Positions 1 to 25,620 of a DNA stretch of 30,803 bases are shown here, in pieces (the stretch's first letter is position 1; every line of letters starts with the position of its first letter). Under the pieces are notes generated by a model. The model made no database searches. It was given only the letters and a program-made list of their open reading frames with translations, and was not told the DNA's origin. A program made the translations under genes and the position numbers. The stretch is taken from the IMG/VR virus record IMGVR_UViG_3300037574_000479, positions 1 to 30,803 of that record. One strand, written 5' to 3'. This DNA is from a virus.

Positions 1-131
1 CCTTCTATGGGAACCGGTGAAAGAGCGCATACGTGATCGTAGATGTACGGCACCACGTCCTCCATACCGAGGATGTGACGTGCTGCTGCTATGATTTTCT
101 TAGCTGCCGTTACCGTTTGCTCGTGATTCAT
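1..131 (-). CDS. Partial CDS, N-terminal 43 residues, downstream partner of MoxR ATPase
   Basis: An open frame starts at the ATG whose complement lies at 129-131 and runs off the left edge without a stop. The start overlaps the TGA stop of the MoxR-like gene as ATGA, the same coupling seen elsewhere in this operon. The visible protein begins MNHEQTVTAAKKIIAAAR and is helical, followed by a hydrophobic stretch around GMEDVVPYIYDHV. In phages and bacteria, MoxR AAA+ genes are often followed by a gene for a VWA-domain or metallopeptidase-like partner. That role is an inference from position only, because too little protein is visible to assign a family. No strong Shine-Dalgarno is visible, so expression probably relies on translational coupling. 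Confidence 0.6.
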   Translation of the reverse strand, partial: MNHEQTVTAAKKIIAAARHILGMEDVVPYIYDHVCALSPVPIE

Positions 132-1447
132 CGTTTTGGTTTTAGGTATTTGGCTACTGGGGACTTTGTACCGAAGTGAAGTATGACTTCTTTGGCTACG
201 GCTTTGACGTCCGGTGGTGTTCCGTGAACCCCCAAGCCCGCGCTGGCTAGGGCATCAAGCGCCTTGACGGCGATGTCGTCTCCACCGGATTCGATTAGGG
301 ACATTATACGCTGCCACGCAAGGGCTGCGTACTTATACTGCTCGTCTTGATCGTCGAGGTTGAGGACAAACGAAATGATGGAACCAAACGTTGCTTGTGT
401 GATGTCTGGTCGTGCGTCGTTGATGGTCACGCCGTTTTCCAGGGCCTCTCTTGGGTCGGGTAGATCTAAGTTTTTGGCATAGGCGATCCATACTCTTGAA
501 GCCCCCTCTCCCACGAAGCCCTCGACGATGATGTTGCGCAACTCCTTGGTGCGCCCCTTGTCGTATCCCAGGCAGTCCAACGTGGCCAAACACTTACACA
601 TTAAATGCCACGTGCGTGGTGACGGCCATGGGCCACCTCCAGCAGGATCGTCAGCTAACGGCTGCTGGTGAAACAATCCATAGTCATGACCCTTGCTGTC
701 AGAGCCGTGGGTGCTGCCACCCCACTCCTTTTTTGCGCGTAAGCAACCAACGGTGGTCATGTACCATTTCGAGATGTGATTTTTGAAGTTGGCCTTTACA
801 AGTTTGTCACCGTCGTTGACCGATACTCGTGGGGCCGCTTTGTTCTTGGCGAACTCAGTAGTCAGAAAAGACTCCCAAGCGTCCAGGGTAGGGGGTCCTA
901 TGTAGTAATGCCCCGGTCGGTTAGCTAGTGCAGGTGAGAGGTCGTAACCGCCCGTTGCAAACTCAGGTGGGTTGCCAGCCATTCCCATCCCGATACCTGG
1001 GCCCATGTCTTCTTCCCCGCACCTCTTGTCATGAATTAGGACTTGTGCAGCACCCTGCGTAGCAGGAGTAGTGCAAGTCGCCTCGTCCAGAAATAGAAAT
1101 CCTCGAGCAGCTTTAAGTAGACGTTTGATAGGCGCGAGGGTGGGTGCCATTACGGCTCCGCCCTTTCCATCGGGTACAGGCACCCCAGCTAGATCTTCCG
1201 GTGGGTGGCAGCCCAAAAACAGAGACTCGAAATGTTCTTCCTTGATGCCCATAGCCAATATGGCCGCTTGTACTCTGGCCGATTTGCCTAGTCCGCTGAG
1301 CCCCCAAAACATAAATGGGATGCCTTTGGGGCAGTCCGGGTCGGTGGGGTCTCCTAGTGGGGCCAGCACATGAATCAGGACAATGTCCTCCAGGTGCTTC
1401 TCCCAGTTCTTCTCCATCACTGCCCACTTGGCGTTCTTCGCGTTCAT
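128..1447 (-). CDS. MoxR-family AAA+ ATPase
   Basis: This 439-residue protein has the core of a MoxR-type AAA+ ATPase. Walker A is GLSGLGKS at residues 49-56, Walker B is FLFLDE at 117-122, and a sensor-1-like asparagine lies in MAGNP near 159. The following stretch up to ANRPGHYYI resembles the MoxR pattern of choosing substrates after the central hydrolysis motifs. MoxR proteins use ATP to remodel or activate partner proteins, often together with a VWA or metallopeptidase-like protein, and the partial gene downstream could be that partner. The ATG start overlaps the stop of the upstream 87-residue gene (ATGA) and is preceded by GAGGAG four to five bases upstream. The role in this phage is unknown; remodelling of host or virion complexes is possible. 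The family call is firm. Confidence 0.9.
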   Translation of the reverse strand: MNAKNAKWAVMEKNWEKHLEDIVLIHVLAPLGDPTDPDCPKGIPFMFWGLSGLGKSARVQAAILAMGIKEEHFESLFLGCHPPEDLAGVPVPDGKGGAVMAPTLAPIKRLLKAARGFLFLDEATCTTPATQGAAQVLIHDKRCGEEDMGPGIGMGMAGNPPEFATGGYDLSPALANRPGHYYIGPPTLDAWESFLTTEFAKNKAAPRVSVNDGDKLVKANFKNHISKWYMTTVGCLRAKKEWGGSTHGSDSKGHDYGLFHQQPLADDPAGGGPWPSPRTWHLMCKCLATLDCLGYDKGRTKELRNIIVEGFVGEGASRVWIAYAKNLDLPDPREALENGVTINDARPDITQATFGSIISFVLNLDDQDEQYKYAALAWQRIMSLIESGGDDIAVKALDALASAGLGVHGTPPDVKAVAKEVILHFGTKSPVAKYLKPKR

Positions 1448-1707: not shown

Positions 1708-2336
1708 TCTTCCGTATTCCCCTTTTTGTTAAAGCCGTATTGCAGACAGGTGTCCTTGCACCCCTCTCTCCAGCACCTTCCTAGTGTGCCTTCTCCGCAG
1801 GACCCTTCTTGATCGACCCCGCTCTCCCAGATGGAGCTCACTACGTCATCGTTGAATCGTTTGAGGCATGCGATGCACATGATGCACCCGGCCTGTTCTA
1901 TCGACGTGTCTACGAAGGTTTGTGTGGCTTGCCCTTCTGGGCATCTGCGGGAGGTTTGTATTTCTCCCCACATACCTAATCCTGTGTACTCCAGGTCTCG
2001 TATGCTGCTGCTGCATATGGAGCATTCCATTACAGCGTGGTTGTCCAGTTCTGGGGACTCATCTTGGACAAACTCTTTGAGGTCTTCGACAGCATCCTCC
2101 CAGCATCCGAAACAGAAGAACGTCGGTTCGTACAGGAAGTCCTTGTCGTCACTCTCTACGATTTCTAGGCGTAGCCCATTTTCATCGCAGATACCTACGA
2201 CTACCCGAAGTAGGTATACCTCTTCGGTCAGCATTATTTCCTCGCTGCACACCACACAATGGTGCCCGCTACGGAATACAAAGGATGCGATGCTGTCATC
2301 GTCTACTGCGGGGTCTATTCGAGCAGCCAATCCCAT
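1704..2336 (-). CDS. Tandem zinc-ribbon-like Cys-rich protein
   Basis: This protein of about 210 residues carries two similar Cys-pair units. Counted from the chosen start, CxxC pairs lie at C27/C30 and C75/C78, and at C105/C108 and C154/C157, with extra cysteines at C50, C132 and C151. Each second pair is followed by an acidic helical stretch (CFGCWEDAVEDL, CIACLKRFNDDV), which suggests an internal duplication of one zinc-binding module. The ATG at 2336 is preferred because AGAGAAGG lies about five bases upstream and the overlap with the previous gene is only 22 bases. The longer frame, with ATGs at 2366 and 2426, overlaps more and lacks a good ribosome site. A zinc-binding adaptor or regulatory role is inferred; no enzyme motif is visible. 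Confidence 0.75.
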   Translation of the reverse strand: MGLAARIDPAVDDDSIASFVFRSGHHCVVCSEEIMLTEEVYLLRVVVGICDENGLRLEIVESDDKDFLYEPTFFCFGCWEDAVEDLKEFVQDESPELDNHAVMECSICSSSIRDLEYTGLGMWGEIQTSRRCPEGQATQTFVDTSIEQAGCIMCIACLKRFNDDVVSSIWESGVDQEGSCGEGTLGRCWREGCKDTCLQYGFNKKGNTEE

Positions 2337-2896
2337 TCCACCTTCTCTCTTTCTACCGAAGCCCATCGAGTCATGATGGTTTCCAGTCTTGGGTCTGGGC
2401 TCGTTCCGTTTCCGTCCGAGTCCCACAGTAAAATTAAAAGTTCTTCGGTATCGACCCCATCGTTATGTAGGCGGCGTACCAGTTCTATATTGGTAGGAAG
2501 TACCCCGGGCATTTCTGCCCGGAGCAGCATTTCCCTATCGAGGAGATCATCCATCAGATCTACCTTGTCGATACACAGGCCGTACCATTCCGGGCTTCCC
2601 GGCTCTGGATAGGTGCTTCCTGTCCATCGACATCTTTCGCCGGGCTTGACTACCTCCAACAGGACTTCGAAGTCCCGCTGGTTGCAGAACGTGGTGAAGC
2701 CCTTCTGGTCTTCTAGTTTGAACCGAACTCCGCCAAGGGCTCTTCCCTCTATGGGGGCGTAAAGACCTTGTACTACCCAGATTCGTTCTGGTTTCTTAGC
2801 GTCAGGGAACGAAGCTCCCAGAAGTCCTAGTCGGTCCTCCAGAAGTCTCGTTCCCTGGAAGGTAGTCAGCCGATCTTTATATGGGTTCAGCAGCAT
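2315..2896 (-). CDS. Hypothetical phage protein
   Basis: I do not recognise the family. The frame is open up to a GTG at 2950, giving 211 residues, but no ribosome site precedes that GTG. The ATG at 2896, giving 193 residues beginning MLLNPYKDRL, is taken as the start with limited certainty because a weak TGAGG lies further upstream. The protein is mixed alpha/beta and acidic towards the C-terminus (EELLILLWDSDGNG), ending in WDWLLE. No signal peptide or transmembrane segment is visible. Its stop overlaps the start of the zinc-ribbon gene by about 22 bases, so the two are probably co-transcribed and translationally coupled. Function is unknown. Confidence 0.65.
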   Translation of the reverse strand: MLLNPYKDRLTTFQGTRLLEDRLGLLGASFPDAKKPERIWVVQGLYAPIEGRALGGVRFKLEDQKGFTTFCNQRDFEVLLEVVKPGERCRWTGSTYPEPGSPEWYGLCIDKVDLMDDLLDREMLLRAEMPGVLPTNIELVRRLHNDGVDTEELLILLWDSDGNGTSPDPRLETIMTRWASVEREKVEWDWLLE

Positions 2897-3239: not shown

Positions 3240-6200
3240 ATGGCGTATCTAGACTTTGAGGAAGCCAACAAGCAATTCCAGGACAGGGTCTTGGACGGCA
3301 TCGGGGATCACTTCCCTATCGAGGGGAAGAAGAGAACTCTTTACCTGGATGGGTTGCAGGTAAAGCAGTCTGAGGACATCTCCAACGACATCCAGCAGCA
3401 GTACGAGCACAGGGTTCAGGGGAAGACGCTGAGCGTTCCTGTCGTGGCCACTCTGTCCCTGAAGGACAATGTCACTGGCAAGGTAGTCGACTCCAAGAAG
3501 GTCAGGTTGGCCGAAGTTCCGGTAATGACTCGAAGGTATAGTCAGATCGTGGACGGTCAGGAGTACCAGTTTAAGAACCAGTGGCAGCTTAAGCCTGGTG
3601 TGTACGCGCGGCGAAGAAGTAAGACCGGGGAGATTTCAACGCAGTTCAACATCCCTATGAGGCCCTTCCAGATTACTTTCGATCCCTCCACCAAGCAGTT
3701 CATGATGGACCGGGGAAAGTCTAAGAAGATCCCCATGTACCCCATCATGAAGGTGATGGGGGTTACCGACAATCAGTTGAAGGAGTCTTGGGGGGAGGAG
3801 GTACTAGAAGCCAACAAGGGTGCCCGAGGTGTCTCCACCGCTCTCCAGAAGTTTTACAAGGCCGACAAGAAAGTTGAGGCCCCCTCGTCTAACGCGGCTT
3901 CGGAATACTTACTCGACACGATGGTGAAGTCGAAGTTACGTCCCGATGTCACTAAGATCACACTTGGTAAGTCGTTCTCCCACGTGCAAGGGGACACGCT
4001 CCGGCTCGCTACTCAAAAGATGATCAAGATTCAGGGTGGAGCTCCTGAGGATGATCGAGACTCGCTGGAATTCAAAGACCTGCGGTCGGGCGGGGACTAC
4101 GCTTACGACAAGCTCACGGATTGGCGAGTCAAGAGATCTATCAAGATGAAGGCCCTTCGTAAGATCAATACCTCCGACAACATCAGAGAGATCGTCAAGT
4201 TCGATTCGTTCAACGACCCCGTCAAAAATACCTTCTCCCAAAACTCGTTGGCAGTAAGAGGGGCCCAGATTAACCCGCTCGAGATGCTCTCTGCTTCCCA
4301 GCAGACCACCATTATGGGACCGGGTGGTATTCAGAGCGAACAACAGGTAGTGGACGAGCAGAAGTTCATCAACCCATCCCATCTTGGGTATCTAGATCCC
4401 CTCCATACTCCCGAGGATGAGAAAACAGGGATATCGCTACGTCTCCCTATGGGTGTGACGAAGGTGGGCAAAGAGCCGCGCATTCCTCTGTACAACTTGC
4501 AGTCGAAAAAGGTTGAGTTTGTCAACCCAATCAAATTCGCCAAGTCGGCTGTAGTTTTGGCAGATCAAGTGGAGTGGAAAGACGGTACCCCCATTCCTAT
4601 CTCCGCCAAGGTCAAGTTGTCAGGGGTGGGTAACCAGATTGAGGAGGGCCCCCTCAAAGACGCTCAATATGTAATGAGCCACCCCTCCCAGACTTTCAAT
4701 GTGACGACTAATCTCATACCGTTTTTGGGAAACACGTCTGGGGTAAGAGCTCGAGCTGCTACTAGCCATCTCGAACAAGCTATCTCATTGGAGGATAGAG
4801 AAGCTCCGCTAGTTCAAACCTCTACGGGGCACCATAAAAAAGGCTACAAAACCTTCGAGCAGCTCCAAGGAACAATGCATGCAGGACATCACGCACCGAT
4901 AAGTGGTGAGGTTGTGGGGGTCGGTAAGAAAGCTATTAAACTGAAGACGCAGAGTGGGAAGATTCGGCAGGTTCCCCTCTATGACAACTTCCCCCTCAAC
5001 GATAAGAATAGTGTCCTGACGTCCACCCCCCTCGTTAAAATTGGGGACAAGGTAACTAAAGGACAGGTAGTTGCTGATACTAACTTTACCAGAAATGGGA
5101 CGTTGGCTTTAGGCACCAATCTACGAGTGGCGTATTTGCCGTTCAAGGGATACAACTTCGAAGATGGTGTTGTGATAAGTGAAGCTGCAGCCAAAAAGCT
5201 GACCAGCGTCCATATGCATAAGCCTTCAATCAAATTGTCTGAGGGTGAGGTTACTGCTCCCCGCAGGTTCCAAGTTAAACATCCTGGGGCGTTCTCTCGA
5301 GACCAGTACAAAATGCTTGATGACTTTGGGGTTGTTAGAGTGGGTCAAGAGATTAAGTCTGGCGATCCTCTCGTGCTCTCCTCCAAGCCTTTTGCTCTAA
5401 AGGGGAGGATGGGTGTGGGGCATGTTCGACGTATTGGAGAGCACACAGATACAACCTTGAAGTGGGAGCAAGATGACACTGGAAAGGTTGTAGGCGTTTA
5501 CCGCATAGGTCCTGAGGTAACTGTTCATATCCGAACTGCTGAGCGCGCAAAGGCCGGGGATAAATTGGCGGGTAGGTACGGCAACAAGGGCGTTATCGCC
5601 GTCGTGTTACCCGACAAAGAGATGCCTCATACGCCTGATGGGAAACCCATAGAGGTGGCTCTCAACCCCTCGGGCGTTCCAGGACGAATGAATATAGGGC
5701 AGGTACTCGAAACTGCGGCAGCCAAGATAGCTAAGAAGACGGGCCAGCCGTATATGATGAGTAACTTCTCCCCGAGAACCGACCAGCTGGCTAAAGTTAA
5801 GAGCGAGCTCAAGACGCACGGCATCAGCGACACTGAGGAACTTATAGATCCGGTGACGGGAGTATCGTTGGGAAAGGCACTGCTGGGCCCCCAGTATATG
5901 CTGAAGCTCACTCATCAAATTGATAAGAAGACCTCGGCACGAGCTGGTATGGGGATCCCAGGAACCAGTAGCGGGGAGACCTATGATCTCAACCTCATCC
6001 CAGTCGGAGGATCGAAATCGGGTGGTCAGAGCATCGGCAACCTTGGGTTCTTTGCTCTGCTGGCACAAGGTGCCAAAGCTAACATTCGAGAGATGCAAAC
6101 CTGGAAGAGTGAGGGAGAAGACCCCAGCCCCCACGAAGGTAAGAAATGGGCGTCACAGCACCGTCAGGTTTGGAAGGCGATTCAAGAAGGAACCCCCCTT

Positions 6201-9200
6201 CCCACACCACGCTCTACGTTCTCTTTTCACAAGTTCACCAGCCTGCTCAGGGCGACAGGCGTAAACGTAGACAAGAAGGGGCATCTGATCCAGCTCTCCC
6301 CCATGACGGATGGGCAAATACTTGCCATGTCTAACGGTGCCATCCCCAAGCCCCAGGAGCTCACGTACTCAAAGCTCGATAAGAACGGAGAGCCTAAGCC
6401 TAAGAAGGGGGGACTATTCGACCCTGTGATAACTGGTGGTCATGATGGCAAGAAGTGGAGCCACATCAAGCTAGCCGAGCCTGTAGCTAACCCCGTTTTC
6501 GCCCCAGCCATCCAAAAAATAATTGGGCTCTCCAAGAAGGACTACGTGTCTGTTGTTACTGGGGGTAAGGCGGTCAACACCAAGGGTGTGGTGGTGCCTC
6601 TCGATACACCCAATTCTACAACTGGTGGTATGGCCATCAAGAAGTTGTTGGGTAAGATCGATGTAGATAAGGAGTTGGCTGCGTCGGAGGCTAAACTCAA
6701 TGACCTTCCGGTGAAGAAGGGCTTTGCGCATGGTAAAGATACGCAGGAGATTGATGTCACACTCAAGAAGGTTAAGTATCTTCGTGCACTGAAGCAGTTG
6801 GGTGTAAAGCCTGTGGACGCTTATATCCTGCACAATTTGCCAGTCCTTCCACCCAAGATGCGCCCTGCTGCCGTACTGGATTCGGGGGACATCAAATGGG
6901 ATGACATCAACGGTCTGTACTCTAAGTTTGGTCAGGTTAATGAGGAGCTCAAAGAGTGGAAGGGCGGTTATCTAACGGATGATTCTGCCACCAAGAAGGA
7001 GTTGCGTAAAAACTTGTATGATGGTGTTAGCGCCATCATGGGGACCCCCGGGGCACCGGAATCCAAGGAGCGCGGTATCCTCCAGCAGATTCATGGAACG
7101 CAACCTAAGAAGGGATACTTCCAGAATACGTTGATGAATCGACGCCAAGATATGTCGATGAGGTCCGTCATCGTTCCGGAGCCTGCCTTGAGCTTGGACG
7201 AGTTGGGACTCCCCCGCTCTAAGGCGACAACGTTGTACCGTCCCTTCTTAGTCAAGAAGCTCGTGGATATGGGGGCTGCCAAGCACCCACTTGAAGCCCA
7301 GATGCTCATCAAGAAGCAGCACAGTTCTGTGGACAGAGCTTTAGAGCTCGTGGCCAACGAGCGTCCCGTCCTCCTCAAGAGAGATCCTGTGCTTCACAAA
7401 CATGGTATCCAGGCATTCAAGCCCAGGCTCGTCTCAGGAAACGCTATTAAGATTCACCCTCTTGTAACAAGTGGGTTTAACGCTGACTTCGATGGCGATG
7501 CGATGAGTATCTACGTGCCCATTGGTAGGGATGCCGTTACCGAGGCCAGGAAGATGTTCCCTTCCAATAATCTCTTCAACGAGGCTACGGGGCGCGTAGC
7601 TTTTCAGCCCACCCTCGATAGTGCTCTTGGACTCTATAAGTTAAGTAGAATCGGTAAGGATACGAAGAAGAAGTTCAAAGACCCAGCAGCTGCTTTGAAT
7701 GCCACCAAGGACGGCAAGTTGGGCATCACCGATTTGATTCATGTAAGCAAGGTTGGGAAGACAACTCCTGGGAGGTTACTGCTCTCCACCGCTCTTCCGG
7801 AGGAGATGCGGAAGGATGTCCTCACTAAGCATGACAAGCTGCTCGACAAGAAAGGTATCAACTCTCTCTTCAACACCTTGGCGACTGATCACAAGGGTGA
7901 CTTTGGTACGACTGCGGACAAGCTGAAAGATTTAGGTAACGGTATGGCCTTCGGGGCTATTGCCATCCCACACCCAGATCACAAGGGACTCTCCGCCATT
8001 AAAGCTGCTGAAGACCCGAAGAGGTCTACAGTGTTTATTCCTACGGGCACACACACGCTGTCGTTGGATGACTTCACGCCCGACAGAGCACTCAGAGATA
8101 AAATACTGGGTTCCGCTCAAAAGCGGGTGAACATGATTCAGAGCAGCTCGAGGGCACATCCGGAGGAGAAGGAAAGGCTCGTCAATAAGATATGGGGTGA
8201 TGCTGCGGATGAGATGAGGGACAAGCACATAGCTAAAGAGAAAAAGAATCCCTCCAATCTGTTCCTGATGCAAGAAGCCGGAGTTAAGCCTGGGTGGGAT
8301 CAATACAAGCAGCTCGTGTTAGCCCCAGTCCAGGTAACGGATGCTGCCAACCGTATCGTGCCCATCCCTATCAAGAAGTCTTACGCTGAAGGGTTAGATC
8401 TCGGCGGGTATTGGACTCAGTCTCACGGAGCTAGGAGAGGTACGGTGATGAAGGTGCAGGAGGTTAGGGAGCCTGGGTTCTTCTCAAAGAACCTTATGAA
8501 CACCTCTATGAACCTCGTCATTAACGGTAACGACTGTGGAACAACGCGAGGTGTTGCCCTTGATGCAACGAGCCCCGACCTTTACGATAGGGAGTTAGCT
8601 AGGGACTTCTCTGCTCGTGGTTTGAAGCTCAAAGCAGGCACCATGCTTGATCCTCCGACCGTAGACAAAATTAGGTCAGCCGATAAAAATGCTCAACTTA
8701 TCGTACGCAGCTCCCTGAAATGTGAGCACGGAGAGGGGCTCTGCCAAAAGTGTGCGGGGATAGGAGCCGACGGCTCCTACCACAATATTGGTACGAACAT
8801 CGGTGCCGTCTCAGCCCAGTCGTTGGGTGAGAGAGCTGTGCAGCTCACGTTGAAAGCTTTTCACAGCGGTGGTGTGCGAACTCAAGGGTCGTCTCGAGTC
8901 CTCAACGATTTTGGCCGCGTTCAACAGCTTACGTCCCTACCCGAGAACATCCCGGATGCTGCTTCGTTGGCCATGAAGTCGGGGAAGATAGAGAAGATAG
9001 ATCGGGATAAGCTGGGAGCCCGAATATGGATAGGTGGCGAGGACCACTATGTAGGAAAGGATCGTGGAGGTCTCTCTCTTTATGAAGACCTCTCAGCAGC
9101 TTCGCGGGATGATGATTACGTGGCATGGCGTCCACCCAAGGTGGGGATGAAGGTAGAGGCCGGACAGTTTCTGTCAGACCCCAATCGCACCTTCCTCAAC

Positions 9201-9704
9201 CCTCATGATCTGTACAAGGCCACCAACAACATGGAGAAGGTTCAGAACCATCTGGTTAAGGAACTCCACGGCATCTACAGCACGCAAGGAGTACGCCGTC
9301 CCCATATAGAGACCATGGTGAAGGCCATGAGTAATTTAACCAAGGTTCGAGCTCCTGGAGATGCAGAGGGTATTTTGAAGGGCGAGTATCAGCCTGCCTC
9401 TGTGATTAGAGCACTCAACACGAAATTGGTTAAAGCAGGCAAGCGACCAGTCATGCACTCACCCATCCTTAAAGGTGTGAATGTCATGCCCCTTGTTATG
9501 CAGGAAGACTGGATGGCGAAACTGCAGCACCAACGCTTGAGAGATACGATTATGGAGGGGGCAGCTTCAGCAGCGGTTAGTAACCTTCATGGCCTCCACC
9601 CAGTTCCGGCTGCGGCCTACGGAGCAGAATTTGGGTTAACGTTGGAGCAATCTGCCCGGCCAGGCTTGCGACACCTAGCCGATGTCTCCCCTTTCAAGTA
9701 TTAA
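3240..9704 (+). CDS. Single-chain fused beta/beta-prime DNA-directed RNA polymerase
   Basis: This 2154-residue protein joins the two large subunits of a bacterial-type RNA polymerase. The beta half (about 1-1008) has the fork-region match NPSHLGYLDPLHTPED from residue 378, the lysines of GDKLAGRYGNKG (K775, K783) and NPSGVPGRMNIGQ from 809. The beta-prime half starts near 1015 with MTDGQILAMSNGAIPKP and carries NRRQDMSMRSVI, the catalytic NADFDGDAM at 1414-1422 (D1416, D1418, D1420), a complete second zinc site (C1766, C1828, C1835, C1838) and the trigger helix QLTLKAFHSGG (H1875). The first zinc-binding loop of beta-prime is missing. The two halves join with almost no linker, and each is shorter than its cellular counterpart. 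The ATG at 3240 is chosen because homology-like sequence begins there; an upstream GTG at 3135 adds unlike sequence overlapping the divergent gene. The catalytic core looks intact. No sigma factor, alpha or omega was recognised in the window. Confidence 0.96.
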   Translation: MAYLDFEEANKQFQDRVLDGIGDHFPIEGKKRTLYLDGLQVKQSEDISNDIQQQYEHRVQGKTLSVPVVATLSLKDNVTGKVVDSKKVRLAEVPVMTRRYSQIVDGQEYQFKNQWQLKPGVYARRRSKTGEISTQFNIPMRPFQITFDPSTKQFMMDRGKSKKIPMYPIMKVMGVTDNQLKESWGEEVLEANKGARGVSTALQKFYKADKKVEAPSSNAASEYLLDTMVKSKLRPDVTKITLGKSFSHVQGDTLRLATQKMIKIQGGAPEDDRDSLEFKDLRSGGDYAYDKLTDWRVKRSIKMKALRKINTSDNIREIVKFDSFNDPVKNTFSQNSLAVRGAQINPLEMLSASQQTTIMGPGGIQSEQQVVDEQKFINPSHLGYLDPLHTPEDEKTGISLRLPMGVTKVGKEPRIPLYNLQSKKVEFVNPIKFAKSAVVLADQVEWKDGTPIPISAKVKLSGVGNQIEEGPLKDAQYVMSHPSQTFNVTTNLIPFLGNTSGVRARAATSHLEQAISLEDREAPLVQTSTGHHKKGYKTFEQLQGTMHAGHHAPISGEVVGVGKKAIKLKTQSGKIRQVPLYDNFPLNDKNSVLTSTPLVKIGDKVTKGQVVADTNFTRNGTLALGTNLRVAYLPFKGYNFEDGVVISEAAAKKLTSVHMHKPSIKLSEGEVTAPRRFQVKHPGAFSRDQYKMLDDFGVVRVGQEIKSGDPLVLSSKPFALKGRMGVGHVRRIGEHTDTTLKWEQDDTGKVVGVYRIGPEVTVHIRTAERAKAGDKLAGRYGNKGVIAVVLPDKEMPHTPDGKPIEVALNPSGVPGRMNIGQVLETAAAKIAKKTGQPYMMSNFSPRTDQLAKVKSELKTHGISDTEELIDPVTGVSLGKALLGPQYMLKLTHQIDKKTSARAGMGIPGTSSGETYDLNLIPVGGSKSGGQSIGNLGFFALLAQGAKANIREMQTWKSEGEDPSPHEGKKWASQHRQVWKAIQEGTPLPTPRSTFSFHKFTSLLRATGVNVDKKGHLIQLSPMTDGQILAMSNGAIPKPQELTYSKLDKNGEPKPKKGGLFDPVITGGHDGKKWSHIKLAEPVANPVFAPAIQKIIGLSKKDYVSVVTGGKAVNTKGVVVPLDTPNSTTGGMAIKKLLGKIDVDKELAASEAKLNDLPVKKGFAHGKDTQEIDVTLKKVKYLRALKQLGVKPVDAYILHNLPVLPPKMRPAAVLDSGDIKWDDINGLYSKFGQVNEELKEWKGGYLTDDSATKKELRKNLYDGVSAIMGTPGAPESKERGILQQIHGTQPKKGYFQNTLMNRRQDMSMRSVIVPEPALSLDELGLPRSKATTLYRPFLVKKLVDMGAAKHPLEAQMLIKKQHSSVDRALELVANERPVLLKRDPVLHKHGIQAFKPRLVSGNAIKIHPLVTSGFNADFDGDAMSIYVPIGRDAVTEARKMFPSNNLFNEATGRVAFQPTLDSALGLYKLSRIGKDTKKKFKDPAAALNATKDGKLGITDLIHVSKVGKTTPGRLLLSTALPEEMRKDVLTKHDKLLDKKGINSLFNTLATDHKGDFGTTADKLKDLGNGMAFGAIAIPHPDHKGLSAIKAAEDPKRSTVFIPTGTHTLSLDDFTPDRALRDKILGSAQKRVNMIQSSSRAHPEEKERLVNKIWGDAADEMRDKHIAKEKKNPSNLFLMQEAGVKPGWDQYKQLVLAPVQVTDAANRIVPIPIKKSYAEGLDLGGYWTQSHGARRGTVMKVQEVREPGFFSKNLMNTSMNLVINGNDCGTTRGVALDATSPDLYDRELARDFSARGLKLKAGTMLDPPTVDKIRSADKNAQLIVRSSLKCEHGEGLCQKCAGIGADGSYHNIGTNIGAVSAQSLGERAVQLTLKAFHSGGVRTQGSSRVLNDFGRVQQLTSLPENIPDAASLAMKSGKIEKIDRDKLGARIWIGGEDHYVGKDRGGLSLYEDLSAASRDDDYVAWRPPKVGMKVEAGQFLSDPNRTFLNPHDLYKATNNMEKVQNHLVKELHGIYSTQGVRRPHIETMVKAMSNLTKVRAPGDAEGILKGEYQPASVIRALNTKLVKAGKRPVMHSPILKGVNVMPLVMQEDWMAKLQHQRLRDTIMEGAASAAVSNLHGLHPVPAAAYGAEFGLTLEQSARPGLRHLADVSPFKY

Positions 9705-9710
9705 AAGTCT

Positions 9711-11021
9711 ATGGCTAGAAGCTTCCAAGACACGAGGATTGTCCCCACCCAGAACCGATTGGCTGCCTACCAATCGTGGGCACTGCAGGAGGTGGGCACC
9801 CCGATAACGCAGGGTAAGGGGAATGTAGGAGCTCAGATTATCGATGCAACCATCGTAGACTTCAACCTTCCTGGGTGGACAGTGGATGTACGAACACAGT
9901 TCGACCAAAGAATCTATTTGGATATCCCCGTGTCGTCTCCCTACCTTCACTGGAACAATGGGGAGGGCATCTACGCTCTCCCGGAGGTAGGGGCGAAATG
10001 TGTCGTCTGCCTGCCCAGCGATAGTACCCCTCCTTTCGTGTTGGCGTTTTTAATGCCGTCAGTGACTCAACAAAGTCAGTTCTTCGATGTTGAGGATGAC
10101 GACGAGAAAGAGGAGGGCGAAGTCGATCCAGAGTCGACCGCTGTCAGCTACGTCGGCAATCGTGACCGCCCCAAGATGGGAGATATCGTCCTCAAAGGGA
10201 GGGACGGTAACTTTGCTATTCTCCACAGAGGCGGAGTTCTGCAGATTGGGTCCTCGGAGCTCGCCCAACGTATCTACATACCGCTGAACAATGTCATCAC
10301 CGACATCTCCCAGAACTATAAGCACTACAACAGTGGGGGAGCCATCAATTGGGGAGTCAGCTCCCTGCCTTCCGAGGACAATCCGCCAACGTCCTACAAG
10401 CAAACCTTCCGACTGTTTGCCAACGAGGGGTCGGATGACACCCCTCCCGTTATCTCGGCTACGGTGCGGGTGGCCATCGGTACCTTCAGCGATATCGTAA
10501 AGGAGCCGTCGGCTGATGATGGTGGTCAAATCTCCAACTTGGAACAGCTTGGTATCGGAACAGATGCTAACGAGCCCATCGTCTGCGAGATAGTTCTGTC
10601 CCCCGGAGGCTTCGTTGCAGATACGGGAGGCCTTACTGAGAACGCTACTAAAAACACAACTCTACGGTTCTTCTTCGATAAGAAGGGGTCTACTTTTCTT
10701 CGATGTAAGGGAAGTATACTTTTGACCACCGATGAGAAGTTTAAGGTGGTGGCTCCTAAGGGTATGGAGTTTGAGACGGAGGAGTCCATCGTGTTCCGGT
10801 CAAAGATCTTCGCCATAACTGGTCCAGAGCTGTGTGAGATAGGGGGCAAGTTGACCAAGATCAATGGTGGCACCAAGCCAGTCGCCACTGTAGGGTCGGC
10901 GGTATCCATGACGGTGCTCGCGCCCATCCCCATCATGACGACGGCGGGACCAGGAACTATCCTGTCGGGCGCTGTTTTTAGCGGGGTCATAACTTCGGGT
11001 AACCCCACGATTCTCTGTTAA
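9711..11021 (+). CDS. Baseplate/tail spike protein, gpV-like OB-fold
   Basis: This 436-residue protein resembles tail spike or baseplate-assembly V proteins. Residues about 42-118 look like the N-terminal OB-fold of such spikes (IIDATIVDF, then ALPEVGAKCVVCLP and PPFVLAFLMP). A very acidic linker follows at about 126-142, then GDIVLKGRDGNFAILHRGG, a form common in spike proteins. The C-terminal 100 residues are beta-rich (KFKVVAPKGMEFETEESIVF), consistent with a beta-helix or beta-prism needle, and end in small and hydrophobic residues. The spike punctures the host outer membrane at infection. The gene starts six bases after the RNA polymerase stop with no strong ribosome site, so it is probably co-transcribed and coupled. 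A gpV-type spike suggests a tail with a baseplate, but does not prove a contractile tail. Confidence 0.7.
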   Translation: MARSFQDTRIVPTQNRLAAYQSWALQEVGTPITQGKGNVGAQIIDATIVDFNLPGWTVDVRTQFDQRIYLDIPVSSPYLHWNNGEGIYALPEVGAKCVVCLPSDSTPPFVLAFLMPSVTQQSQFFDVEDDDEKEEGEVDPESTAVSYVGNRDRPKMGDIVLKGRDGNFAILHRGGVLQIGSSELAQRIYIPLNNVITDISQNYKHYNSGGAINWGVSSLPSEDNPPTSYKQTFRLFANEGSDDTPPVISATVRVAIGTFSDIVKEPSADDGGQISNLEQLGIGTDANEPIVCEIVLSPGGFVADTGGLTENATKNTTLRFFFDKKGSTFLRCKGSILLTTDEKFKVVAPKGMEFETEESIVFRSKIFAITGPELCEIGGKLTKINGGTKPVATVGSAVSMTVLAPIPIMTTAGPGTILSGAVFSGVITSGNPTILC

Positions 11022-11024
11022 GCC

Positions 11025-11672
11025 ATGGCAGTCACGCTAGTAAAGGGGGGCGGCATGGTGGACTTGAATGTCGGCCTTGCGGCGGCGGCCGGGTTCCTGA
11101 ACCCCCTTGGCGCACAGATAGATGCGATGCTTTCAGCGGGTCTCGGCCCCCTACAGTTCGATCTCGGTGTGCAGTTCGACGCCGCCCTGTCTCTTCAGGC
11201 AACCCTCTCCATTCAGGTGGGTAACCCCCTAGCAGCCCTTCAGGCAGCCATCGCTGCGGTGGCCCAGCTACAAGTAGCTCTTCAAGCGGCCCTCTCCCTA
11301 CCTGCAATTACGGTGAGTATTGGAGCGGAGCTCGGTGCCTCCGCTGCGCTGGGGGCGGCTTTAGCGGTCAAGTTAGGCGCGTTAGAGCTACTTATTGCTG
11401 CTGCTCTGAACATCAAGATCCCAGCCATAAAGTTTGCCGCAGAGATGGCGGCGAATCTCAGTGCCGGCCCTCTTATATTGGCGAGATTTGGGGGCCAGCC
11501 TACTGATACTTTAGCGAGCAGCGGGGCAGATATTGCTTCTACCTTTGGTTCGCAATTGTCGATAGATGGGGTGACTATTGACCCTTCTGACCCAGTACTG
11601 GGTATCATACTCGTGGCAGGTACTCCTTCCGTCGGCGCCTCGTTCAACGCGCTGTTCGGCGCAGGCTTCTAG
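11025..11672 (+). CDS. Ala/Leu-rich virion-type protein
   Basis: I do not recognise a named family. The 215-residue protein is extremely rich in Ala, Leu and Gly, with repeated hydrophobic helical stretches such as LQAAIAAVAQLQVALQAAL and ASAALGAALAVKLGALELL, and very few charged residues. It lacks a typical signal peptide. It starts three bases after the spike gene stop and is followed by another virion-type gene, so a tail or baseplate role is likely by position. The long apolar segments could pack as a helical bundle, a trimeric hub or a membrane-interacting part of the tail. Codon use looks like that of its neighbours. Confidence 0.65.
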   Translation: MAVTLVKGGGMVDLNVGLAAAAGFLNPLGAQIDAMLSAGLGPLQFDLGVQFDAALSLQATLSIQVGNPLAALQAAIAAVAQLQVALQAALSLPAITVSIGAELGASAALGAALAVKLGALELLIAAALNIKIPAIKFAAEMAANLSAGPLILARFGGQPTDTLASSGADIASTFGSQLSIDGVTIDPSDPVLGIILVAGTPSVGASFNALFGAGF

Positions 11673-15170: not shown

Positions 15171-15429
15171 GGAACTCGACCCTGTTTTTGTAGTGCTTGA
15201 TGTGGGCTGCCTTCCACCCAGACTCTCTGATGTACTCTTTGATGTAAGCGCTCGTGAGTCTCTTGCTGCCCAAGGGCAGCGCGTTGGTTAACCACAACGT
15301 GATCAAGTCCCCCTCCGAGTGATCAACTATATTGGCCTCCGTATGAAAATGACCACCAGCTCTATTGAGGGACTCCCAGAGGTTCTGCACGGTTTCCGTC
15401 AGCGAGTCAGTTTTTGATGGTGGGAACAT
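15127..15429 (-). CDS. Possible antisense small gene before terL
   Basis: On the minus strand an ORF of 100 residues starts at an ATG that shares the palindromic CATG with the terL ATG, and ends at TAG 15127-15129, 44 bases inside the upstream gene on the other strand. The protein (LWESLNRAGGHFHTEA, WLTNALPLGSKRLTSAYI, SGWKAAHIKHYKNRVEFLI) has a normal amino-acid mix and reads like a folded alpha/beta protein, unlike most shadow frames here. It fills the otherwise empty 257 bases between 15171 and 15427. No clear ribosome site precedes the ATG, and a GTG at 15390 is a possible shorter start. If it is not a gene, this stretch is a non-coding leader of terL. Confidence 0.5.
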   Translation of the reverse strand: MFPPSKTDSLTETVQNLWESLNRAGGHFHTEANIVDHSEGDLITLWLTNALPLGSKRLTSAYIKEYIRESGWKAAHIKHYKNRVEFLITPDLHPTARGTS

Positions 15430-17188
15430 GACAGTTGATTTAACCGACGAGCTATCTGGAGTGGGGAGTGCTCTCTGGGAACAGGGGGACAGTTTATCCG
15501 ACAACGAGATGGTAGGCACGCCTACTGAGGTACCAAAGGGAATGCCCCCGTCGGTTAAGCCCTCCACGTTTACATCGTTCGCCTTCAGGATGCCGAGTGA
15601 TGAGGGGACAGGCTACGAGGCCTTCTCCTTCAGTGGGCGCAGGCACATTCTTCGGTGCTACGACACGCCGGCCAAGAGAGTGCTTCTCTTTTGCGGTCGG
15701 CAGGTAGAGAAGAGCACCCTGCTTGGGAACATGGCGCTCTGCTACATGTGCATGATTCCAGCTTACAAGGTCCTGTACGTATCTCCCTCTGCTACCCAGA
15801 CCAAGACCTTCTCCAACGACCGTATTAAGGAGCCCATCGAGACGAGTCCTGTCTTGAAGAGGTTTACAACTACAATGCTCTCCCAGAATATCTTGGAGAA
15901 GCAGTTCATCAACCGCTCCAAGATAACCTTGCGGTATGCGTTCCTGAACGCAGATCGTACTCGCGGCATCCCAGCGTGGATGCTCCAGCTTGACGAGTTT
16001 CAAGACATCTTGTCCGACAACATCCCTGTCATTGAGCAGTGCTTGTCCCATGCCCCCGAGAAGTGGAAGCGTTTCATCTACGCCGGCACGCCCAAGAGTC
16101 TGGACAACAATCTTGAGTACTACCGCGAGAGACTTTCCACCCAGGGAGAGTGGGTGGTTCCCTGCGACAGGTGCGGCACTACTGCGGCTGGGGGGACAGG
16201 TCGTTACTGGAATGTCCTGGGTGAGAAGAACATAGGCAAGAAGGGGCTCAAGTGTGAGAAGTGCGGCGAGCTCATTGATGCCATGCACAAAGATGCGCAG
16301 TGGGCGCGCATGATAGAGAACGCACCCTTCGAGAGTTACCGCATCCCACAGCTCATGGTTCCATGGATGCCCTGGGAGGAGATCTTACTCAACTACGAGC
16401 GCTATCCTCGTGACAAGTTCTACAACGAGGTGCTCGGCGTTTCTTACGACTCGGGACTTAGGCCCCTTACTACGCATCAGGTGATGGAGTGCTGCTCCCC
16501 TGATTTATCTATGGGCGACATTGATAAATACGTGGCTAAGTCCGCAGGGCAGCCTGTGTTTGCGGGGATCGATTGGGGGACTGGGGAGAACTCGTACACG
16601 TTCGTCACCTTAGCCACCTATGTGGATATGAGATTCAGGGTGTTCTACGCCCACCGATTTACAGGAGAGGATACTTCTCCTCCCGTCCAGCTAGCCAAAA
16701 TCTGTGAGATCATCAACAAGTTCAACGTCCGTATGGTGGGTACCGATTACGGTGGTGGGTTTGATCGCAACGATCATTTGATCCGGCAGTTCGGCCCTCA
16801 GCGCATCCAGAAGTTCCAGTACCTAGCTAGGTGTAAGAGGAAGGTCGAGTGGGACGGCAAACTTCGTAGGTGGAAGGTTCATCGTACTGAGGCGATGAGT
16901 GACATCTTCAACGCCATCAAGCGTAAGCAGTGTGAGTTCCCCAGGTGGGAAGAGTTCAAGGACCCCGCTGGGCAGGATATGCTCAACATCTACAGCGAGT
17001 ACAACAACGTGCTTAGGATGATCGTATACAAGCACGGTGTGGACAAGCCTGACGACTCCTTCCACTCACTGCTCTATTGCTGGCTGGCATCCATGATCAT
17101 AACCCCACGGCCAGATATCATTGCTCCCAGGAAGGGAAGCACCATGCAGAATTCGGATATGGAATACCGCCCCGTCTACCAGGGTTAG
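15428..17188 (+). CDS. terL: Terminase large subunit (ATPase and nuclease)
   Basis: This 586-residue protein drives DNA into the prohead and cuts it. The ATPase half has a variant Walker A, GRQVEKST (90-97), with Glu where Gly is more usual, and Walker B LQLDEFQD with D189 and E190. A four-cysteine zinc-ribbon-like insert (C246, C249, C276, C279) lies between ATPase and nuclease halves, a feature also seen in lambda GpA-type terminases. The RNase H-like nuclease has acidic residues D382 (GIDWGTGENS), D440 (GTDYGGG) and D542/D543 (PDDSFHSLLY). The ATG at 15428, preceded by GGTGGG, is chosen over a frame-open start at 15365 that lies in intergenic sequence. Its TAG overlaps the stop of the convergent HTH gene by three bases. 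Confidence 0.93.
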   Translation: MTVDLTDELSGVGSALWEQGDSLSDNEMVGTPTEVPKGMPPSVKPSTFTSFAFRMPSDEGTGYEAFSFSGRRHILRCYDTPAKRVLLFCGRQVEKSTLLGNMALCYMCMIPAYKVLYVSPSATQTKTFSNDRIKEPIETSPVLKRFTTTMLSQNILEKQFINRSKITLRYAFLNADRTRGIPAWMLQLDEFQDILSDNIPVIEQCLSHAPEKWKRFIYAGTPKSLDNNLEYYRERLSTQGEWVVPCDRCGTTAAGGTGRYWNVLGEKNIGKKGLKCEKCGELIDAMHKDAQWARMIENAPFESYRIPQLMVPWMPWEEILLNYERYPRDKFYNEVLGVSYDSGLRPLTTHQVMECCSPDLSMGDIDKYVAKSAGQPVFAGIDWGTGENSYTFVTLATYVDMRFRVFYAHRFTGEDTSPPVQLAKICEIINKFNVRMVGTDYGGGFDRNDHLIRQFGPQRIQKFQYLARCKRKVEWDGKLRRWKVHRTEAMSDIFNAIKRKQCEFPRWEEFKDPAGQDMLNIYSEYNNVLRMIVYKHGVDKPDDSFHSLLYCWLASMIITPRPDIIAPRKGSTMQNSDMEYRPVYQG

Positions 17189-17886: not shown

Positions 17887-17971
17887 GATTCTTCTTCTAC
17901 CTTAATTCCCCGTACTTTGCTTCCCTTGAGATCGTTAGACGTTGTAGCCTGTAAGGGCTAAGGAGTGGTTT

Positions 17972-19770: not shown

Positions 19771-19782
19771 GATGGCGCGTAG

Positions 19783-21513
19783 ATGCTCAAGGTTAGTCAT
19801 TTTTTAGGGGAGTCAGAAGCTGGTTTAGGAGCTGTTCCCCTTTTTGGTCCTGCCGACAGTGCGTTCGAGAAGGTTGCTGCACCTAGCTTGTTGCCTGAGG
19901 TAACGAAGTACATCGAGGGTTTGCGGCCCGTTGATGACGCCGTGTACGTACTCGTCAATGCTCTTGGGGCTGGGGAGTATTACGGCTCGAACATCAACGG
20001 TGATCACTTTCCCGAAGCCTCTCTTCTACACTTGCCTGATAGCTGGACGGGCCAGCCCATTATCGATAAGGCCATTGGTAAAAATTGGGCGTACGGCTTT
20101 CCTACTTTTTATAACGCTCACCCCTTCGCCCATCATAGGAACAAGGACGCCCGGCGTGCATTTGGCGAGGTAGAACTAGCTACCTGGAACCCTCGTATGA
20201 GGCGAGTCGAACTCGTTACCCGGGTGGACAAGAATAAGGCTCTGAAGTTTGGGGGCATAGGGGTTTGGGATAAGCTCAAAGCCGGCATGTTTCCCGATGT
20301 GAGCATGGGCACGAAGGTTCCTTACGACACCTGCTCCATCTGTCTCGATTGGGATAGGTACAACCGGGGGATGCAGAAGTTCGACCCGGCCAAGGACAAG
20401 CACCCCGGCCAAGCTATTCTCGCCCTACACAAGCAGCTCAAGGCTCAGGACGGGGTGGGGATTAAGGGGCTCTCTGTTACCCGAAAAGATTACTGTGAGC
20501 ACGCCAAGACCTTGATGAATAGGATCTTGCCCGACGGCAGGAAGGTATTCGTCTATAACGACTACCCCCGCTTCTTCGATATCAGTTTCGTCTTCATAGG
20601 TGCCGATAAGACGGCCAAGGTGATGGTGTATCTGTCGAGCGCAAAGCCGTCGGCGGCGGTTGCCGAGGATTTGGGGTATCAGGAGAGCCTTCCCGACATC
20701 TTCTACCACTATGGGGAGAAGACAGCTTCTGTCGCGGACCAAACTCTGAAAATGGCTTTCTTGGGCAAGAGCGCCAAGAATAAGAACAGTGAGATTAAGA
20801 AAAGAGTAGTCCCCAGTCAGTTCGCCGGGAAAGCCGTTCCGCTTCTTACCAAGCAAGAAGAGGACTTCCCGCCAGAACTTTTGGAGACGTTAAGTAAGTT
20901 TCCCTTAAAGAATTCTCTGTCTACTCTTTCTGGTTTGGGAATGCTGCTCCGCCCCAGGGAGTTTCAAAGGACCATTCTTATTCGTATGCAGAAGAAGCCT
21001 CTGGCGGATGACCTAGAGAGGCGGGGGGAAGTATTTCCGAGAGTAGAAGAAGAAGAAGATTTGGGAACTTCTCCGGACTTGTTCCTACCTTCTTTAGCTC
21101 GGTTACTTATGCCCCTAATGGCGCAGCGCTCCGCGCTGGGTCCAATTATAGAACGTAGAGTAGTAATTATTTCTAGCAAGTCCCCGAAAGAAGAAGGGCC
21201 AAAGCCTTCCCATCCTTCGGAACTACTGCGTAAGATTGGAGCTGCATACAACGGATATCGACGTGGTGTAATGGAATTAGTAGCTAACTCTCAGCAGCTC
21301 ATAGCAGCAGCAACTCTCTCCTCGGAGGGGGATCTGCAGAAGCTCTCCAGTGCCGCGCCCGAAGAATTGTTTACCCCACTTACTGTTGCGTACTTAAGTA
21401 ATGCTTTTCGCGATGAGGTAGGATTTGGGTATACGCCTCAAGGGGTGATAAAAGTTTCAAGCAATCGGCATGAGCCGGCGTGGAGAGGGGTACTCCCTTC
21501 AGTGAACACGTAA
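19783..21513 (+). CDS. Prohead maturation protease with C-terminal extension
   Basis: Residues 60-290 match what I know of phage prohead proteases of the S78-like group: NGDHFP at 72-77, a His cluster NAHPFAHHRNKD (H113, H117, H118), WNPRMRRVELVTRVDKN, and DVSMGTKV with the likely catalytic serine S174. A Cys/His set (C184, C187, C238, H240) suggests a zinc-stabilised insert, and FFDISFVFIGADKTA follows. The protease cleaves scaffold and other head proteins during maturation, and scaffold-like genes follow directly. The C-terminal 250 residues, with an acidic EEEED run and the stretch LGMLLRPREFQR, are outside the catalytic core and may be a scaffolding or targeting extension. The start ATG at 19783 lacks a clear ribosome site. 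Catalytic residues are inferred from motif positions. Confidence 0.8.
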   Translation: MLKVSHFLGESEAGLGAVPLFGPADSAFEKVAAPSLLPEVTKYIEGLRPVDDAVYVLVNALGAGEYYGSNINGDHFPEASLLHLPDSWTGQPIIDKAIGKNWAYGFPTFYNAHPFAHHRNKDARRAFGEVELATWNPRMRRVELVTRVDKNKALKFGGIGVWDKLKAGMFPDVSMGTKVPYDTCSICLDWDRYNRGMQKFDPAKDKHPGQAILALHKQLKAQDGVGIKGLSVTRKDYCEHAKTLMNRILPDGRKVFVYNDYPRFFDISFVFIGADKTAKVMVYLSSAKPSAAVAEDLGYQESLPDIFYHYGEKTASVADQTLKMAFLGKSAKNKNSEIKKRVVPSQFAGKAVPLLTKQEEDFPPELLETLSKFPLKNSLSTLSGLGMLLRPREFQRTILIRMQKKPLADDLERRGEVFPRVEEEEDLGTSPDLFLPSLARLLMPLMAQRSALGPIIERRVVIISSKSPKEEGPKPSHPSELLRKIGAAYNGYRRGVMELVANSQQLIAAATLSSEGDLQKLSSAAPEELFTPLTVAYLSNAFRDEVGFGYTPQGVIKVSSNRHEPAWRGVLPSVNT

Positions 21514-24495: not shown

Positions 24496-25620
24496 ATGAG
24501 CGTTCCAGCGCGTATGCTAAATGAACTTTTCACCCAAAAGCTGGGGACAGCCGAGGGTAAAGAAAAGATTGCTGAATATGGCGGGTCGTATATTCGAGAC
24601 CGTCTTCGTGAGGTGAGCTTCACCCGTAAGGTGATGCCCCCTGAACAGGTTACCCGCGCTGATTGCCAGCGTTCGGTTAACCACGACACCTTGGTCAAGA
24701 TCATTGATGTCGAGCCTCAAAGTCGTGCCATGTCGATCACTTTCCGTGGTCAGCCGACTGCTCGCTTCATCCGTGGTCCGAAGGCAGAGATTGGGTTTTA
24801 CACAATCTCCAGCGAAATGTTCCAGAAGACGGAACAGGAGCTGCTCGCCTACGAGATGCCGATCACCAAGATCATCGAGGAGAACTCGGTCAAAGACATT
24901 CAAGAAATTGAAGACCGTGAGTTCCTCGTCCACATCGAAGCAGCTGTCCAGGCTCTCCAAACGGAGGCCAACGGCAATGTTGCTACCGCACTGAACGCTA
25001 CGACAGTTCAGGCCGGTACGGTGGTGGAGTTCTCGGCCATCAAGGGTGAGCTCGCTCGTAACGCCGTTGCTAACGACGCTACTGTTCGACCCATCCAGCG
25101 GCCCGACGTGGTCAACCTCTTCAAGCTCCTCGACGGTAACCGTCTGCGGGCTGAGCGCTTGCTCATGACTGAGGTGGACTGGGACGACATTCTCCAGTGG
25201 ACTGTCGAGGACTTCGGTGCTCGCATCCAGTCGGAGACTGCGGTCGATGGCTACAAGTACAACACCTTGTTGGGTCGTGCTTACATCCGCACCATCAAGA
25301 CGGACATCCTCCGTCCTGGTAACGTGTATGCATTCACGGCACCGGAGTTCTTCGGTAAGTTCTACGTGTTGAACAACACGAAGTTCTACATCGACAAGGT
25401 CGCCAATACGATTACTTTCCAGGCTTGGGAAGACATCGGCATGGGCGTTATCAACATCGCATCGGTTCGTAAGCTTGAGCTTTACTCGGCTGATGCCAAC
25501 CCAACAACAGACGCTGATGGCTTGCTGGCGAACTTCATTCCGCTAGCTGAAGATCAGCTCGGCGCGGTAAACAACCGCGTTGATCAGGGCCTCGTATTCC
25601 CGCAGGTTGTGCAGTTCTAG
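24496..25620 (+). CDS. Major capsid protein, probable HK97 fold
   Basis: This 374-residue protein is the best candidate for the major capsid protein. It follows a strong AGGAGA site, sits after protease and scaffold-like genes, and is closed by a strong terminator, a common arrangement for highly expressed capsid genes. An N-terminal helical arm (RMLNELFTQKLGTAEGKEK) is followed by beta-rich sequence, a long helix-like stretch (IKDIQEIEDREFLVHIEAA region, about 130-155) resembling the HK97 spine helix, a loop with alternating strands, and a C-terminal domain ending with PQVVQF. The HK97 fold is inferred from layout and size, not proven. There is no sign of frameshift or truncation. Confidence 0.8.
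   Translation: MSVPARMLNELFTQKLGTAEGKEKIAEYGGSYIRDRLREVSFTRKVMPPEQVTRADCQRSVNHDTLVKIIDVEPQSRAMSITFRGQPTARFIRGPKAEIGFYTISSEMFQKTEQELLAYEMPITKIIEENSVKDIQEIEDREFLVHIEAAVQALQTEANGNVATALNATTVQAGTVVEFSAIKGELARNAVANDATVRPIQRPDVVNLFKLLDGNRLRAERLLMTEVDWDDILQWTVEDFGARIQSETAVDGYKYNTLLGRAYIRTIKTDILRPGNVYAFTAPEFFGKFYVLNNTKFYIDKVANTITFQAWEDIGMGVINIASVRKLELYSADANPTTDADGLLANFIPLAEDQLGAVNNRVDQGLVFPQVVQF

Follow-up and report, generated by a model that had tools for sequence, protein, structure and literature searches.

Multisubunit RNA polymerases of the bacterial type have been described in several groups of phages. In the phiKZ/AR9-type phages, virion and non-virion enzymes act without alpha or omega, one of the two being present in the virion, and their large subunits are split into several genes (PMC7598289). 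The mReC phages, a group of tailed phages known from metagenomes, carry deep-branching beta and beta' subunits near structural genes, with no mention of fusion among them (Weinheimer & Aylward 2020, PMC7481178). Single-chain enzymes in which one polypeptide holds both barrels include gp66 of the crAss-like phage phi14:2, P23-45 gp96/gp64 and YonO, P23-45 gp96 being a virion enzyme (PMC10770324). Among cellular organisms, beta and beta' are fused, in this order, in the RpoBC of Helicobacteraceae and Wolbachia (cited in PMC7483510). Finally, the cultured Salmonella phage Arash (proposed 'Arashvirus', PMC10585845) was published as having a 'beta' and a 'beta'' subunit, both of them detected in its virions. 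Here we describe a phage locus in which bacterial-type beta and beta' are joined end to end in one protein of 2154 residues. The window analysed is the whole of IMG/VR record IMGVR_UViG_3300037574_000479, a linear fragment of 30,803 nucleotides, and positions are those of this window.

Architecture of the Fused Polymerase

The polymerase is encoded by one uninterrupted open reading frame (3240..9704, plus strand), whose MAYLD start is conserved in relatives. Pfam profiles identify beta domains (Rpb2_3, residues 343-401; Rpb2_6, residues 588-902, E 9e-61) followed in the same chain by beta' domains (Rpb1_1, 1015-1241; Rpb1_2, 1301-1439; Rpb1_3, 1445-1569; Rpb1_5, 1718-2045). The beta part (3240..6275, plus strand) comprises residues 1 to ~1012, and its double-psi barrel region (5001..5945, plus strand) contains the GDK/GNK lysines within GDKLAGRYGNKG (residues 773-784) and the motif NPSGVPGRMN (from residue 809). 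The beta' part (6285..9701, plus strand; residues ~1016-2154) retains the catalytic NADFDGD (7479..7499, plus strand; residues 1414-1420), the bridge helix, the second zinc site (8535..8753, plus strand; C1766, C1828, C1835 and C1838) and the trigger helix QLTLKAFHSGG with H1875 (8841..8873, plus strand; residues 1868-1878). The joint (6261..6302, plus strand; residues 1008-1021) lies where a sequence-only reading had placed it, and alignment to bacteria and to 32 relatives shows that the beta C-terminal LLRATGVNVDKK runs into GHLIQLSPMTDGQI; the last beta strand and the first beta' strand are connected by a tight turn.

Structure prediction, carried out with AlphaFold on two overlapping pieces that cover residues 1-1500 rather than on the whole chain, is in agreement with this architecture. 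The predicted model of residues 1-610 (pLDDT 85.1, pTM 0.83) matches M. tuberculosis beta with a TM of 0.80, while that of residues 560-1500 (pLDDT 81.8, pTM 0.74; pLDDT 81-95 at the joint) gives bacterial beta' chains as best Foldseek hits. It is important to note that the sequence-only reading, which had proposed a compact and complete beta plus beta' core in a tailed phage with a deep-branching polymerase, is supported, but that the word 'complete' needs a limit. The N-terminal beta' zinc ribbon of the bacterial sequences is deleted (6435..6452, plus strand; residues 1066-1071; GLFDPVITGGHDG-KKWSH, ~32 residues) in the window and in all aligned clade members, and the flap is shortened. In addition, no alpha (PF01000) was found in 12 and no omega (PF01192) in 15 clade records, while the controls were detected in 13 and 14 of 14; the window's own genome is incomplete.

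A degenerate polymerase with a structural role only could be imagined from the position of the gene among virion genes and from the abundance of its counterpart in Arash virions. However, NADFDGD, GDK/GNK, the bridge helix, the trigger-helix His and the zinc-site Cys are retained in fused relatives, the Cys being invariant in those aligned. Moreover, inteins sit at catalytic motifs in several relatives, most frequently at NADFDGD, which is the usual habit of inteins in active enzymes. This reading is accordingly regarded as very unlikely.

Conservation and Phylogeny of the Fusion

The fusion is not particular to this phage but is the rule in its clade. Of 111 distinct related IMG/VR loci, 97 have the full single ORF, and all 108 that cover the joint are fused. 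These relatives come from different metagenomes, reach down to ~35% identity and are joined at the same place, and the cultured phages Arash and Vibrio D69 are fused too. An assembly or frameshift artefact joining two genes, for which no support was found, is therefore refuted for the clade and is considered extremely improbable for the window, although this rests on relatives and not on reads. Close relatives with separate genes were sought in IMG/VR and in 84,980 species genomes, and none appeared among the loci returned (the 80 best of each search); the genome scan gave only ordinary separate cellular rpoB/rpoC at 25-30% identity, and a single-sequence scan with the beta' of a Rhizobium phage found nothing. 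One locus that looked like a phage with separate genes is an ordinary bacterial rplKAJL-rpoBC-rpsLG-fusA operon. 'Staphylococcus phage SA 1306 Kay' and 'Enterococcus phage Efs 1-1-1' do have separate genes, but their beta' carries the bacterial zinc ribbon and the former groups with Bacillota in the tree; they are probably host DNA and were not used as phage evidence. The separate-gene phage polymerases that were found have the opposite gene order, beta' then beta.

In phylogenetic analysis, 27 fused or fused-then-split sequences were separated from 23 bacteria with a support of 100, and this separation was obtained again when 13 separate-gene phages were added and a mixture model was used; only bacteria, and no archaea or eukaryotes, were included as cellular sequences. 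The clade, whose largest records are 130-200 kb, is best explained as descending from one fused ancestor. The recent capture by a phage of a cellular fused rpoBC of the Helicobacter or Wolbachia type was also considered, since the fused beta/beta' models PRK09603 (488 bits) and PRK14844 are among the best NCBIfam hits. Nevertheless, these scores are about a tenth of the curated cut-offs (488 bits against 5372; 450 against 4632), the chain is ~700 residues shorter than those models, and the clade branches apart from the bacterial sequences. Even though Helicobacter and Wolbachia themselves were not in the tree, this origin is thus very unlikely.

The polymerase lies in the structural block, and on its strand, in the window and in relatives. 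Upstream, a divergent gene of unknown function (2315..2896, minus strand; 193 aa) is conserved beside the polymerase, with 46-53% identity in four relatives, and a gene of the same block (9711..11021, plus strand; 436 aa, unknown) is conserved downstream of it. Further along are a terminase large subunit of the gpA type (15428..17188, plus strand; PF05876, 1e-13; phrog_675, 3e-56), a structural protein homologous to the Arash virion protein Gp222 (19783..21513, plus strand) and the major capsid protein (24496..25620, plus strand; phrog_2522, no Pfam match), homologue of Arash Gp226, whose cultured relatives were found only in Arash and Vibrio D69/D148/D181.

A Probable Virion Polymerase

The most likely explanation, held with moderate confidence, is that this protein is a single-chain core RNA polymerase that works as a virion enzyme. 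Translation of beta and beta' as one protein makes the two halves form at 1:1 and next to each other, which would let them fold together without the alpha dimer that bacteria use as assembly platform; that the joint replaces alpha is an inference. In this view the enzyme would be made with the late structural genes, packaged with a phage sigma-like protein, injected with the DNA and used to transcribe early phage genes without host polymerase. Packaging in this phage, injection, promoter recognition by this sigma and early transcription are all inferred; evidence of presence in virions exists only for Arash, which lies on the sister branch and has a broken beta'. In published mass spectrometry of purified Arash virions (PMC10585845), Gp206 (beta plus the N half of beta', 1525 aa), which its authors call 'subunit beta', is the most-detected protein, with 128 unique peptides, 100% coverage and 3516 spectra, while Gp216 (the C part of beta') yielded 1210 spectra and the sigma Gp10 yielded 467 with 100% coverage. 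Dividing these values by length, we obtained 2.3, 2.0 and 2.0 spectra per residue, respectively, compared with 1.5 for the portal and 4.3 for the capsid. However, the particles were cleaned by sucrose gradient, 116 proteins were found, including ribonucleotide reductase, and the authors themselves note that abundant enzymes may be carry-over.

A candidate sigma partner is also conserved in the clade. Searches with the sigma70 region 2 and region 4 families gave patchy results, but when Gp10 was used as query homologues were found in 10 of 13 metagenomic clade records and in D69, with Sigma70_r3 above the Pfam cut-off in several, although the region 2 and 4 matches are weak. In two of these records, G001 and G003, the gene is on the same strand as, and a few kb from, tail-gene homologues of gp6/gp8. 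It was not found in G002, G004 or G005, which incomplete records may explain, and the window is too short to show whether this phage has it. The other Arash sigma (gp196) has a homologue in D69 but none in G001, G003, G004 or G005. Over-represented 8-mers upstream of genes in four relatives gave no common promoter motif.

Alternatively, the fused polymerase could be real and active but not packaged, being made during infection from a host- or phage-driven promoter to transcribe middle or late genes. In fact, only one match to the beta barrel family was seen in each of 10 records, so that no second polymerase of this type was seen and the enzyme could serve any stage; likewise, sigma homologues are patchy outside the Gp10 family, and abundance in Arash particles could reflect carry-over. 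On the other hand, the highest spectral count in the Arash virion, the similar spectra per residue of core, beta'C and sigma, the position of the gene inside the structural block and the conserved sigma near tail genes speak against this possibility, which is considered unlikely, yet remains the main alternative. A broader reading, possible but tentative, is that a large clade of tailed phages packages a ready-made, bacterial-type holoenzyme, formed by a single-chain core that needs no alpha or omega together with its own sigma, and injects it to start transcription independently of the host polymerase. It would be the minimal natural form of the bacterial enzyme.

Comparison with Known Systems

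Bacterial polymerase assembly is thought to need the alpha dimer, and how phage multisubunit polymerases hold together without it is stated as unknown (PMC7598289). An alpha-less single chain that is still alignable with the bacterial enzyme, with a candidate sigma partner and a cultured relative whose virions contain it, makes this question testable with one or two proteins, and it would also be a compact core for structural work. What appears to be new is this fusion, of which no published description was found in our literature searches, and the re-reading that it permits of the most-detected protein of an already published virion.

The closest systems are Arash and Vibrio phages D69/D148/D181, which share with the window the beta/beta' joint, homologous capsid, portal and structural proteins and a Gp10-type sigma, Arash and D69 being placed in the same clade with a support of 100. 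In these phages, however, beta' is broken after the catalytic barrel (window residues ~1480-1510) and its C part is a separate gene, and the Arash subunits were published without noting that Gp206 contains the catalytic half of beta'. The mReC phages also have deep-branching beta and beta' separate from cellular homologues, but membership of this group is not shown: the MCP of PF07068 and the TerL of PF03237, reported in only 8 and 17 of its 97 contigs, are not matched in the window. Compared with the phiKZ/AR9-type enzymes, in which the large subunits are divided among several genes, here both are joined. The fused RpoBC of Helicobacteraceae and Wolbachia has the same order of subunits, but it is cellular, measures ~2840-2890 aa in the NCBIfam models and is not close to this protein. 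Lastly, the single-chain two-barrel enzymes phi14:2 gp66, P23-45 gp96/gp64 and YonO form a different, highly diverged clade, the crAss enzymes having no recognisable COG0085/COG0086 similarity (PMC7481178), whereas the chain described here aligns readily with bacterial beta and beta' over most of its length.

Organization of the beta-beta' chain

The sequence-only reading proposed that a single polypeptide carries both large subunits of a bacterial-type RNA polymerase, and the reading frame at positions 3240-9704 (+) is indeed open over 2154 codons. Pfam places beta domains (residues 343-401 and 588-902) and then beta' domains (residues 1015-1241, 1301-1439, 1445-1569 and 1718-2045) in this frame, and NCBIfam covers residues 200-1011 with rpoB and 1125-2119 with rpoC models. 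The window itself is a complete but short IMG/VR record. When aligned with seven bacteria, the chain keeps the beta lysines (GDK, GNK), the NADFDGD motif, the bridge helix, the trigger helix with its His, and the four Cys of the second zinc site. By contrast, it lacks the N-terminal beta' zinc ribbon (GLFDPVITGGHDG-KKWSH) and has a shortened flap. Residues of the rifampicin region that are constant in the bacteria (FMDQ, THKRR and neighbours) are replaced, so resistance to rifampicin is predicted, although it has not been shown. At the joint, the beta end SFHKFTSLLRATGVNVD is followed by KKGHLIQLSPMTDGQI, the start of beta', whereas bacteria have further residues, a stop and a start at this place. 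An AlphaFold model of residues 560-1500 (pLDDT 81.8) predicts the joint confidently (blocks 81-95) as helix, strand, turn, strand, helix, and a Foldseek search with it returns bacterial beta' chains. Residues 1-610, where sequence profiles are weakest, give a pLDDT of 85 and a TM of 0.80 to mycobacterial beta, while the assignment of residues 1500-2154 rests on sequence only.

Distribution and phylogeny of the fused polymerases

Three scans of IMG/VR yielded 111 distinct loci, of which 108 cover the joint and all of these are fused. The full single ORF is seen in 97 loci, and the three loci that do not cover the joint are fragments at contig ends. Identities of the best segments to the window run from 61 to 32%. 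A scan of species genomes gave, among the best 80 loci, cellular polymerases at 25-30% identity. In one relative (L134), the fused ORF is divided at 11079-11083, near window residue 690, by either an error or recoding. It is interesting to note that inteins interrupt the polymerase of many relatives at conserved motifs, namely TPE/ (392), GDKM/ (776), GNKGI/ (785-787), NP/SGVPGR (810), NADFDGD (1419-1421) and KAFH/SGG (1875), and that most of them have LAGLIDADG domains. One relative (L130) carries three inteins, giving an ORF of 3259 residues. Inserts, perhaps also inteins, are suggested by the terminase large subunits of two further relatives, G004 (15435-18314) and G005 (17519-20599), which reach 959 and 1026 aa, respectively, against ~600 elsewhere.

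Among cultured phages, a homologue over the joint is found in Vibrio phages D69, D148 and D181 and in Salmonella phage Arash. Inspection of the ORFs of D69, D181 and Arash revealed that beta is joined to the catalytic half of beta', and that the rest of beta' is a separate gene after window residue ~1480-1510. In D181, a homing endonuclease gene (4501-5450) additionally interrupts the polymerase near window residue 500, leaving the chain in three pieces, while D69 lacks this insertion. The match to the cyanobacterial rpoC1 model of NCBIfam ends at the same place (residue 1502), and a split after the barrel at the cyanobacterial site has been reported in phiKZ-type enzymes (PMC7598289), so beta' seems to tolerate a break there. 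Trees of concatenated beta and beta' put all fused rows and the two cultured rows on one branch with support 100, both against 23 bacteria and against 18 bacteria plus 13 separate-gene phages, although the placement of Arash/D69 as sister to the rest or nested in it is not resolved (support 89 and 21). Phages with separate genes form other branches, with beta' before beta. One such set, with beta' of ~900-1060 aa followed by beta of ~1010-1445 aa, possibly corresponds to the published mReC (PMC7481178). Two GenBank records named as Staphylococcus and Enterococcus phages (OR844998 and OR846602) carry ordinary bacterial-type rpoB-rpoC and are probably host DNA. The simplest reading of these data is one fusion at the base of the clade with a later break of beta' in the cultured branch, an inference drawn from unrooted trees.

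A possible virion-packaged holoenzyme

No alpha was found in 12 clade records and no omega in 15, while the control searches were positive. A single match to the barrel family per record argues against the presence of a second polymerase of this type. The published virion proteome of Arash (PMC10585845) lists Gp206 as the most detected protein (3516 spectra, 128 unique peptides, 100% coverage), together with Gp216 (1210 spectra) and the sigma Gp10 (467 spectra). Normalized by length, these values correspond to 2.3, 2.0 and 2.0 spectra per residue, against 1.5 for the portal and 4.3 for the capsid protein, although spectral counts are rough. The authors of that study do not use the words fused or fusion, and offer both early transcription and carry-over as explanations. 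Gp10 has Sigma70_r3 above cut-off and lies between tail genes in Arash. Homologues of Gp10 are present in D69 and in 10 of 13 metagenomic clade records (E down to 1e-28), on the same strand as and a few kb from tail-gene homologues in two of these records, G001 and G003. Another Arash virion protein of the tail block, gp7 (226 aa, 4426-5106), resembles the second zinc region of beta' (phmmer E 4e-7 to D69 beta'C; DC.T followed by VR..C...GG.C.KC) but has no Pfam match, and is possibly a copy of the zinc domain reused in the virion.

The core gene itself lies in the structural block with conserved neighbours. Upstream of the polymerase, on the opposite strand, an ATPase (phrog_1297) is encoded at 128-1447 (-) and is conserved in relatives. 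A MerR/excisionase-like DNA-binding protein at 17185-17886 (-) is encoded against the structural genes and is conserved next to the terminase in G001, G003, G004 and a further relative, L004 (28-33% identity). Together, the virion data, the sigma homologues and the position of the core gene favor a packaged holoenzyme, even though packaging is shown only in Arash, and injection and early transcription are inferred.

Relation to known polymerases

No report of a fused bacterial-type core in phages was found in the literature searched, in which most subscription papers and preprints are not represented. Multisubunit polymerases in phages, single-chain two-barrel polymerases, virion polymerases and cellular beta-beta' fusions are all known.
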